From Cellulomonas timonensis (lineage in GTDB: Bacteria > Actinomycetota > Actinomycetes > Actinomycetales > Cellulomonadaceae), in the NCBI RefSeq assembly GCF_900046455.1, contig NZ_FCOT01000011.1, positions 1 through 64,000 of the forward strand: a stretch of 64,000 nt of DNA, read 5' to 3'. Under the pieces are notes generated by a model. The model saw nothing but the letters and a program-made list of their open reading frames with translations, had not been told where the DNA came from and ran no database searches. Position numbers and translations under genes: made by a program. Shown here piece by piece: positions 25,790-29,694 of the stretch (its first letter is position 1; every line of letters begins with the position of its first letter).

Positions 25790-25824
25790 TATTGACGCCG
25801 TTCTATATAAACCGGAGGCAGAGC

Positions 25825-26034
25825 ATGGCGATGACCAGCGTGGATCTTCCCGAGGACCTCGTCGCTGAAGCGATGCACGCCCTCGGGGCGAAGACCAAGC
25901 GCGAAGCGATCACCAGCGCACTGGAGGACGTCGTGCGCCGAAGCCACCAGCGCGAAGCCCTGGGCGCGCTCAGCCAGATGACCTTCGCCAGCGACCTGCT
26001 CGATCCGGAGGTTCGTGCGCAGGCGCGCCGGTGA
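25825..26034 (+). CDS. vapB: VapB-like antitoxin
   Basis: A 69-residue ribbon-helix-helix type antitoxin: MAMTSVDLPEDLVAEAMHAL provides the N-terminal DNA-binding strand/helix, followed by TKREAITSALEDVVRR. The C-terminal tail (ALSQMTFASDLLDPEV) is the kind of extension that blocks the toxin's active site. ATG 25825 has the ribosome binding site GGAGG 6 bases upstream. The TGA overlaps the toxin start (GTGA), so the pair is coupled, and VapB is probably an autorepressor. Confidence 0.88.
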   Translation: MAMTSVDLPEDLVAEAMHALGAKTKREAITSALEDVVRRSHQREALGALSQMTFASDLLDPEVRAQARR

Positions 26035-26522
26035 GCAAGTCCAGCGCGCGCCGCATCGCAGACAGGCGCGCAGCGATGAAGCCCGCACCAGTCCGACCGG
26101 AACCCACTGCGGACCTGCGCTACCTGATCGACAACAGCGTGTGGGCACGCGTGCCGACCTCCCCGACGATCGCGCAGCGCGTCGCGGACATCCAGCGTGA
26201 TCACACGATCTGCGTGACCACCGCTCAGATGGTCGAGCACGGGTACAGCGCCAGGAACCCCGTCGAACTCGACGCCTCACATCGGGCGATGTCGACGTTC
26301 ACCGTGCTGCACATGTCGCCGACGACGCACACCGTGGCACTCGGCATCCAGCAACGGCTGTGGCACAACGGGCTGATCCGGTCCGCGGGGGCGTTCGACA
26401 CTCTCATCGCCGCCGTCGCGATCGAGCATGACGTGACAGTCCTGCACTACGACAGGGACTTCGAGCACATCGCCTCAGTCGTCAGCGAGTTCCGCGAGGA
26501 ATCGCTCGTCGATCTCGGTTGA
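26031..26522 (+). CDS. vapC: VapC-like PIN-domain toxin
   Basis: A 163-residue PIN-domain RNase. The acidic residues are seen in YLIDNSVWAR (first Asp), the AQMVEHGYSA region and DTLIAAVAIEHDVTVLHYDRDFEHIA (conserved acidic pair and Mg-binding C-terminus). About 28 basic, Pro-rich residues precede the fold, which is longer than typical VapC. It overlaps VapB by 4 bases and is convergent with the next toxin-antitoxin pair. Confidence 0.88.
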   Translation: MSKSSARRIADRRAAMKPAPVRPEPTADLRYLIDNSVWARVPTSPTIAQRVADIQRDHTICVTTAQMVEHGYSARNPVELDASHRAMSTFTVLHMSPTTHTVALGIQQRLWHNGLIRSAGAFDTLIAAVAIEHDVTVLHYDRDFEHIASVVSEFREESLVDLG

Positions 26523-26552
26523 TGACGGCGGGCAGCTGCGGGTGAGGCAACA

Positions 26553-26960
26553 TCACCGATCCCACACGGTGCCGATCTCGCGGAACTCGGCGAGCGCCTC
26601 GTCACGGGTGGCGAGGGTGAGGTTCTCGATGATCGCCTGAGCGGCGAGCAGCCGGTCGAACGGGTCCCGGTGCTCCCACAGCAGCGTCCCGGCGAGCAGG
26701 GCGTGCTCGTGGGTGATGGGCAGCGACGTGATCTGCATGTCCGAGAGGCGCGCGCCCCACGCTTGGACGAGCGGCATGTACTCCTCGGGGAGCTTCCCCA
26801 GCCGGGTCTTGGTCGCGATCTCCATCGCGCTGGCGGCGGAGGCGAACACTGTGACGTGCGGGTCGGCCAGGACGGAGCGCAACGTGACGGGCACGCGGTC
26901 GGGGGCGAAGACGAGCCACAGGAGCGTGTGCGTGTCGAGCAGGTACGCCCTCACTCCCAT
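26553..26960 (-). CDS. PIN-domain toxin (VapC family) of a second module
   Basis: A 135-residue PIN toxin: YLLDTHTLLWLVF with the first Asp, SAMEIATKTRLGKLP with the conserved Glu, and WEHRDPFDRLLAAQAIIENLTLATRDEAL with the acidic DPFDRLLAAQA block. It is unrelated in detail to the convergent VapC at 26031 but has the same fold. ATG 26960 lies inside the end of the Phd-like antitoxin gene (10-base overlap), so they are co-translated. Confidence 0.9.
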   Translation of the reverse strand: MGVRAYLLDTHTLLWLVFAPDRVPVTLRSVLADPHVTVFASAASAMEIATKTRLGKLPEEYMPLVQAWGARLSDMQITSLPITHEHALLAGTLLWEHRDPFDRLLAAQAIIENLTLATRDEALAEFREIGTVWDR

Positions 26961-27172
26961 GCCGCCAGCTCGTCCTCGGTCATCGGCTCGAAGAACGAGT
27001 CGGGGATGTCGGGGCCGTCCATGATCCCGAACTGTCGCGGCTTGCGCTCCGCGGGCACGAGGCGCGCCACGGGGGTGCCGGCGCGCGCGATCCAGACCTC
27101 CTCGCCGCGTTCTGCACGGGCCAGCAGGTCGGACAGCTTCGCTTTGGCATCCTGCACGTTGACCGTGAGCAT
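26951..27172 (-). CDS. Phd/YefM-family antitoxin
   Basis: A 73-residue antitoxin: MLTVNVQDAKAKLSDLLARAERGEEVWIARAGTPVARLVP is the Phd/YefM DNA-binding domain, and the C-terminal QFGIMDGPDIPDSFFEPMTEDELAAWE is an acidic tail that would occupy the PIN active site. The start ATG 27172 is 9 bases from an inverted-repeat block (27181-27205) likely used for autoregulation. The Phd fold with a PIN toxin is a known but less common pairing. Confidence 0.9.
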   Translation of the reverse strand: MLTVNVQDAKAKLSDLLARAERGEEVWIARAGTPVARLVPAERKPRQFGIMDGPDIPDSFFEPMTEDELAAWE

Positions 27173-27180
27173 GGCACCTA

Positions 27181-28220: not shown

Positions 28221-28381
28221 CTGCCCTCATCCACTTCCGGCTGTGGCCCGTGTCACATGCTCGCATCCGACGTGGTTGGCCCCGTCGTACGAAGGTCCTG
28301 GTCGTGGCGATCTGGCGCGCACGCTGGCAAGATGCGGCCGTGGCGCCCCGCTCGTGGCGCCGGCCGACAGGAGCTGCTGCC

Positions 28382-29095
28382 GTGATCACCGCCCATCAGG
28401 TCCGCCAGATCTCGTTCGCCCGCACGCGCGGCGCCGGTGCGTATGACGCGACGGCGGTCGACCACATGCTCCAGCGCGTCGCCACCACGCTCGAGGCCCT
28501 CGAGCAGGGCCGGACGGCCAGCCCCGACGGGTCGCGCCTGCTCCTCCCCCGCGACATCCGCACCGGCGAGCCGCCCGTCGCGAACGGCCACGACGCCGGC
28601 TACTCGGCCGCAGAGGTGGACGCGTTCCGCGCCCAACTGGTCGCCACGCTCGAGGAGTACGTGCGCCGGCACGCCGGGCCACGTCGCAAGGCCTCGAGCG
28701 CGGCTGAGCAGCAGTCGTCGGGCGCGCCGGCGAGCAGGCCGTCGGCGGCGCCCTCGGCCACGCCCTCGCCGACGATGGCGGCGCCCGCCGTGTCCGCGGC
28801 GACGGCCTCTGCTGCGGCGGCCGCCGCGACCCTGACCACGGCGCAGGACTTGTCGTCGGCGCCGGAGGGCCTGAGCGCCTACGACGTCGTCCTCGGCCTG
28901 CAGACCGCGGGCGCCGCGTTGTTCGGCGATCAGCGGGACCGGCTCTTCGTCCGGACGCCCGAGGGGCGGCTCACCCGCGTGGTCGCCGTCGACACCGTGG
29001 CGGACGGGATCGTCGTGCACGCCCTGTCTCTTATACACACCCGACGCTGCCGACGATCTTACGCGTGTAGATCTCGGTGGTGGCGTGCCCCGTGA
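28382..29095 (+). CDS. DivIVA-like protein, 3' end replaced by adapter sequence
   Basis: The native part is about 214 codons (28382-29023). It contains two DivIVA-type segments, ISFARTRGAGAYDATAVDHM near residue 10 and GYSAAEVDAFRAQLV near residue 80. A Pro/Ala/Ser-rich linker follows, then a C-terminal domain LSAYDVVLGLQTAGAALFGDQ..LTRVVAVDTVADGIVVHA. It is a paralogue of the next gene, whose ending (ED-T-DGVVLNLV-stop) implies that only a few residues are missing here. The formal reading frame continues to 29095 through Nextera adapter sequence, so the last 23 codons are not biological. GTG start. Confidence 0.75.
   Translation: MITAHQVRQISFARTRGAGAYDATAVDHMLQRVATTLEALEQGRTASPDGSRLLLPRDIRTGEPPVANGHDAGYSAAEVDAFRAQLVATLEEYVRRHAGPRRKASSAAEQQSSGAPASRPSAAPSATPSPTMAAPAVSAATASAAAAAATLTTAQDLSSAPEGLSAYDVVLGLQTAGAALFGDQRDRLFVRTPEGRLTRVVAVDTVADGIVVHALSLIHTRRCRRSYACRSRWWRAP
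29024..29080 (+). other. Illumina Nextera adapter embedded in the assembly
   Basis: The sequence runs CTGTCTCTTATACACA, three mismatched bases, GACGCTGCCGACGA, the 8-base TCTTACGC, then GTGTAGATCTCGGTGG. From memory this is the transposase end plus i5-side adapter of Nextera libraries, and TCTTACGC is the reverse complement of the i5 index GCGTAAGA (S517). It is not chromosomal sequence. It marks a chimeric join of unknown gap size between two paralogous genes. Confidence 0.95.
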
Positions 29096-29694
29096 TCACC
29101 GCCGACCAGCTCCGCCGCCGCGCACTGTCGAGCAGCTACCGCTCGGACGGTTACGACCAGACCCAGGTCGACCACTACCTGGAACTCGCCGCCGCGACGC
29201 TGTCGGCACTGGAGGAGGGGCGCCCGGGGGCGAGCACTGCGGCGACGATGCTGCTGCGGGAGATGAAGACGGCGAAGTTCGGGCCCCGGCGGTCGGGGGC
29301 GGGTTACGCGTCGACGGAGGTGGAGGCGCTGCGCACAGGCGTCGTGGCGGCGTTGGAGGCGTACGTCGGATCGACGGCGCCTGCCACGTCCACAGGGGCT
29401 TCCCCGGCCCACCTGCCGCCGGCCACGACCTCCTCCAGCGCCGCCACGACACCGGCCACGCCGAACCCCACGCCCCACGCCAGCCCCGCCACCGCACGCG
29501 TGACAGCGCCGACCGTCGTCAGCGCATACCGCGAGCTCAGCGCCTTCGACCTCATCATGCGCGTGCAGAGCGGCCGCACCACGCTGATGGCCACGCGGGG
29601 CGAGCGCGTCGTCGTGCAGACCGCCTCGGGGGCCCTGCACGCCATCGGGTCCGTGGAGGACACACCCGACGGCGTGGTGCTCAACCTGGTGTGA
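29092..29694 (+). CDS. DivIVA-like protein, paralogue of the preceding gene
   Basis: A 200-residue protein starting at GTG 29092 as MITADQLRRRALSSSYRSDG. It has two DivIVA-type repeats (GYDQTQVDHYLELAAATL and GYASTEVEALRTGVVAALEAY), a Pro/Thr/Ala-rich linker and a C-terminal domain matching the paralogue (LSAFDLIMRVQSGRTTLM). Proteins with such N-terminal domains often bind membrane or polar scaffolds, but the function here is unknown. Its native upstream region is lost at the adapter junction, so the ribosome binding site and any extra N-terminal residues cannot be judged. Confidence 0.75.
   Translation: MITADQLRRRALSSSYRSDGYDQTQVDHYLELAAATLSALEEGRPGASTAATMLLREMKTAKFGPRRSGAGYASTEVEALRTGVVAALEAYVGSTAPATSTGASPAHLPPATTSSSAATTPATPNPTPHASPATARVTAPTVVSAYRELSAFDLIMRVQSGRTTLMATRGERVVVQTASGALHAIGSVEDTPDGVVLNLV

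Follow-up and report, generated by a model that had tools for sequence, protein, structure and literature searches.

A stretch of 58 bases located between two genes of Cellulomonas timonensis is, virtually beyond doubt, an adapter artefact. It lies in the window, which is the whole 64,000-nucleotide stretch of DNA that was analyzed, and it is near certain that it represents an assembly artefact and not a biological feature. The original prediction is supported and can be widened from this single position to the whole assembly. This reading is based on the identity of the adapter and of its index, the absence of the stretch in related genomes, the loss of native bases and the presence of many further copies. 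Overall, the best explanation is very probably a residual Illumina Nextera adapter, left by read-through, escape from trimming and subsequent joining. The adapter parts and the genes around them are placed as follows:

28253..29038, minus strand: spurious open reading frame beginning MYKRQ, with its start codon inside the adapter
28382..29023, plus strand: native part of the first DivIVA-domain gene, which lacks its own end in the assembly
29024..29042, plus strand: Nextera mosaic end, 19 bases, with two mismatches (29040 and 29042)
29043..29056, plus strand: read-1 primer part of the i5 side, GACGCTGCCGACGA (as read through)
29057..29064, plus strand: i5 index TCTTACGC, the reverse complement of S517
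29065..29081, plus strand: P5 part GTGTAGATCTCGGTGGT; the adapter match stops at 29081
29082..29091, plus strand: apparent resumption of native sequence, GGCGTGCCCC (hand count against strain ET82)
29092..29694, plus strand: second gene, related to the first, with a likely GTG start at 29092

The stretch occupies positions 29024-29081 and contains, in order, CTGTCTCTTATACACA, CCC, GACGCTGCCGACGA, TCTTACGC and GTGTAGATCTCGGTGGT. By direct comparison, 56 of its 58 bases are equal to the Nextera i5-side read-through sequence, and the order of the blocks is kept. The four adapter blocks named in the original prediction are all present in their order and place, and their assignment to the Nextera transposase end and the i5-side adapter is borne out. 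The two misses are found at 29040 and 29042, where the window has CCC and the reference has TCT. They are followed by a run of 39 bases (29043-29081), index included, that is free of mismatches. After 29081 only 4 of 12 bases agree with the reference, and for this reason the end of the adapter is set at this position. The extent proposed earlier (29024-29080) stops one base short of this end. When up to three mismatches are allowed, the 19-base mosaic end has a single match in the window, which is the copy at 29024 with its two mismatches, and none in 100 shuffles. The index had been proposed to be the reverse complement of S517. In the excerpt of PMC7770539, S517 is printed as GCGTAAGA, which by computation is the reverse complement of TCTTACGC; the proposal agrees with both, and the index of the window belongs to a commercial kit set.

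The same locus in three relatives (genomes G001, G002 and G003) contains ordinary sequence, and none of them carries the adapter bases; the case named in advance as refuting the original prediction, a related genome with these bases here, did not occur. Among the relatives found, Cellulomonas cellasea ET82, which is apparently the same as G002, is the closest. ET82 is identical to the window up to GTGCACGCC and then continues with a stop, a spacer, a ribosome-binding site and a GTG start. A stop, a spacer and a ribosome-binding site are also placed at the adapter position in G003. In the more distant G001 (53% identity), the first gene ends at its own stop and no adapter comes after it within the 110 bases covered. 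CAC is the last shared codon, and its distance from the GTG start amounts to 71 bases in the window, compared with 58 in ET82 and 55 in G003. In a hand alignment, 45 ordinary ET82 bases, covering the end of the gene, the spacer and the start of the ribosome-binding site, stand opposite the 58 adapter bases, which indicates that native sequence is missing here and not merely interrupted. The bases that follow the adapter, GGCGTGCCCC, are equal to those of the ribosome-binding-site region of ET82, GGAGTCCCCC, at 8 of 10 positions counted by hand. The ordinary sequence of the three relatives and the bases missing in comparison with ET82 uphold the claim that the join is not the chromosome. On the other hand, the true distance to the second gene, which had been called unknown, is not wholly so, since in the two closest relatives stop and start are 49 (ET82) and 46 bases (G003) apart.

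The adapter is directly flanked by a 7-base inverted repeat, GCACGCC at 29017-29023 and GGCGTGC at 29082-29088. The right-hand half of this repeat is missing in ET82. Around the copy in the window, inverted matches reach a length of 9 at most, compared with 10 for the direct-match control, in a search that was not aimed at the repeat itself.

Both neighboring genes are affected. The open frame of the first gene, listed from 28208, crosses the adapter and is closed by a chance stop at 29093-29095, and 23 false codons are placed between the last native-looking codon and this stop; the last codons of this gene are artificial, as had been anticipated. The longest listed frame of the second gene begins falsely at 29077, within the adapter. 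The spurious minus-strand peptide start MYKRQ, also anticipated, is listed as such in a frame of 261 residues with a GTG start (29038-28253). The first gene contains an N-terminal DivI1A domain (TIGR03544, 34.2 bits, above the curated cut-off of 22), and its score with Pfam PF05103 is 24 bits, below the cut-off of 28. The second gene shares 37% identity with the first over the matched part, scores 20.4 bits with TIGR03544, just under the cut-off of 22, and has no match to a DivIVA family in the Pfam search. The DivIVA-like label stands for the first gene and is only weakly justified for the second. Elsewhere in the window (25792-27177), small open reading frames resemble two putative PIN-domain toxin-antitoxin pairs, according to translations read by eye.

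The copy in the window is one of many. The assembly of this genome (4.06 Mb, 13 contigs, 99.98% complete) contains the 16-base mosaic end in 3 exact copies, in 8 copies at up to one mismatch and in 43 copies at up to three mismatches, whereas the reversed control contains none. At up to one mismatch, no copy is found in six other genomes of the genus. The 43 copies correspond to 38 places, some copies being paired and hence not fully independent, and are distributed over contigs C1, C8, C9, C10, C11, C12 and C13. On the small contig C1, one copy lies close to the contig end and is directed outward. Five pairs of copies are close together, and in four of these the two copies face each other. 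According to the bases that follow, and with a type assigned when at least 9 positions equal those of the primer part, 30 of the 43 copies are of the i5 type, 8 are of the i7 type and 5 are unassigned. The plurality index is TCTTACGC for the 30 i5-type copies (weakest column 13/30) and AGGCAGAA, presumably N703, for the 8 i7-type copies (weakest column 4/8). Single blocks are poorly diagnostic in this G+C-rich genome and a clean count is obtained from the mosaic end only: GACGCTGCCGACGA alone gives 48 matches at up to one mismatch (14 in the reversed control), the i7 primer part alone 37 at up to two mismatches (24 in the control) and the P5 part alone 142 at up to three mismatches (19 in the control).

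The flanks of some copies are repeated. At three copies the left flank recurs beyond the adapter over 41, 56 and 59 bases, compared with at most 13 in same-size controls. The comparison with relatives covered 3 of the 38 places. At C13:847976, a native stretch is repeated on both sides of the adapter in the assembly, and when placed on G001, G002 and G003 the halves share 61-70 bases and form one continuous copy. At C11:461949, the match to G002 stops at the last base ahead of the adapter. Further gene breaks of this genome may likewise be false, with degraded adapters placed in some cases between repeated native flanks. A plasmid search with the left flank gave no match.

The distribution of mismatches in the 43 copies has a sharp lower limit. 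The full 19-base mosaic end is not found at zero or one mismatch and is found 23 times at exactly two (control 0); two, three, four and five mismatches are present in 23, 13, 5 and 2 copies, respectively. The next 14 bases of the 30 i5-type copies have no such floor, 10 of them being perfect and 6 having one miss. In the window copy, both errors (TCT to CCC) are within the mosaic end and are followed by the 39 perfect bases. The floor suggests that a trimmer took the good matches and that only adapters with at least two errors survived, since this is the expected residue of a trimmer that clips at up to one mismatch in 19 bases. Trimming is thus a likely part of the explanation. The literature search found no paper on such a trimmer setting, and no paper on adapters of this genome was found among the matches listed, many more having matched. 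Built-in trimming, according to PMC8021871, normally looks for exact sequences, and errors and read-throughs make this more complicated.

The residue would then have arisen in several steps. Library fragments below the read length would be read through into the i5-side adapter. Subsequently, a trimming step may have clipped the adapters with at most one mismatch to the 19-base mosaic end, and the reads carrying at least two errors there would have kept theirs. At places that are hard to read, the few adapter-bearing reads would extend the contig ends. The assembler or a gap filler would finally join the adapter tail to the next piece, with the loss of native bases at the window. The 60-base left flanks of the copies have longest single-base runs of 5.1 on average, compared with 3.5 in 60-mers of the window, and runs of at least 7 are present in 5 of 43 left flanks and in none of 1065 window 60-mers. 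These longer runs fit hard-to-read stretches with few good reads.

The substitutions lean strongly to G and C, and to C above all. In 37 of the 43 copies, namely those that clearly match the i5 or the i7 type, 158 of 740 A/T positions are changed, compared with 26 of 784 G/C positions. Trimming alone does not explain this lean. A real adapter residue whose mismatches result from consensus voting between adapter tails and overlaid native reads would agree with changes that lean to G and C like the genome, and the altered base is the native one at 9 of 17 positions within the first 41 bases of three places, counted by eye. This count is suggestive only, as in G+C-rich DNA 9/17 is not much more than expected by chance, and the number of places, three, is small. 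Moreover, a sharp floor of two mismatches that holds for the first 19 bases and is absent from the next 14 is not predicted by voting, and such an origin of the mismatches is considered unlikely. Two further, simple candidates for the lean found no support. For error correction toward common genomic 7-mers, which were counted in the window only, the chosen base was better in 57 cases and worse in 77 (p 0.10). The relation of C or G substitutions to the C or G content of the left flank was evaluated on 37 of 38 assigned copies (Spearman 0.13, one-sided permutation p 0.23).

A chimeric library molecule, in which two fragments were joined via an adapter by PCR or clustering and then sequenced and assembled, would place a copy internally, as is the case in the window, and is in line with the pairs of copies that face each other. 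However, no two-mismatch floor is expected from such molecules, nor do they produce the repeated flanks around some copies, and this origin is highly improbable. A natural repeat that the chromosome truly contains at many places, for example what remains of Tn5-like transposon ends, has a probability close to nil. Such a repeat would fit the many copies within one genome and the derivation of the mosaic end from Tn5 ends, but the copies bear kit indices, synthetic primer parts and tails of the P5 or i7 side, the six other genomes of the genus have none at up to one mismatch, and similar stretches are present at the ends of viral contigs as well as in unrelated phages, plasmids and E. coli.

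The preferred reading, a residual Nextera adapter, can be compared with known cases. The window copy is like the i5-side read-through of Illumina Nextera (Tn5 tagmentation) libraries with S517 in block order, in bases and in index. It differs in having two errors in the mosaic end and in being placed inside a contig, whereas viral-contig copies are at stretch ends. The latter were retrieved with a pattern that leaves the last three mosaic-end bases free and is exact elsewhere. TCT ends the mosaic end in 124 of 124 copies among the matches listed (at least 120 stretches), and all 124 of those listed point outward and lie no more than 120 bases from where the fetched stretch ends; the same S517 index is present in 19 of the 124 listed. 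The adapter residues that escape built-in trimming (PMC8021871) are also alike, in that errors and read-throughs pass exact-sequence checks, but the excerpt of this paper mentions neither a mismatch floor nor the Cellulomonas timonensis genome. Acinetobacter phage TAC1 (MK170160) resembles the window in its internal adapter, which bears the same index and is located where an annotated gene has its 3' end, and differs in that it is another organism and its two copies face each other.

The phage TAC1 record, which is titled complete genome, has these two facing S517 Nextera adapters at MK170160.1 22594-22647 and beyond, and one of them contains the end of the annotated tail fiber gene TAC_0042. 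Adapter-like stretches are present in 49 phage records (30 covering at least 80% of the query), in 10 plasmid records (3 covering at least 80%) and in 2 of 5426 E. coli genomes, one of them within acrS of strain CV601 (NZ_CP067994).

The stretch has no biological meaning and its value is in quality control. At the window, the 3' end of the first gene and the start of the longest frame of the second gene are false, and a false MYKRQ protein is predictable. The genome contains 38 suspect places despite its completeness of 99.98%, a score that is blind to them, and a search for the 19-base adapter start at zero or one mismatch misses every copy. Internal false joins due solely to adapters too error-rich for the trimmer may form a hidden class of errors in assemblies of trimmed reads, a generalization from one genome for which the chances appear evenly balanced. 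If true, the setting of the trimmer would be betrayed by a sharp mismatch floor, and such joins would be found only when the search tolerates mismatches.
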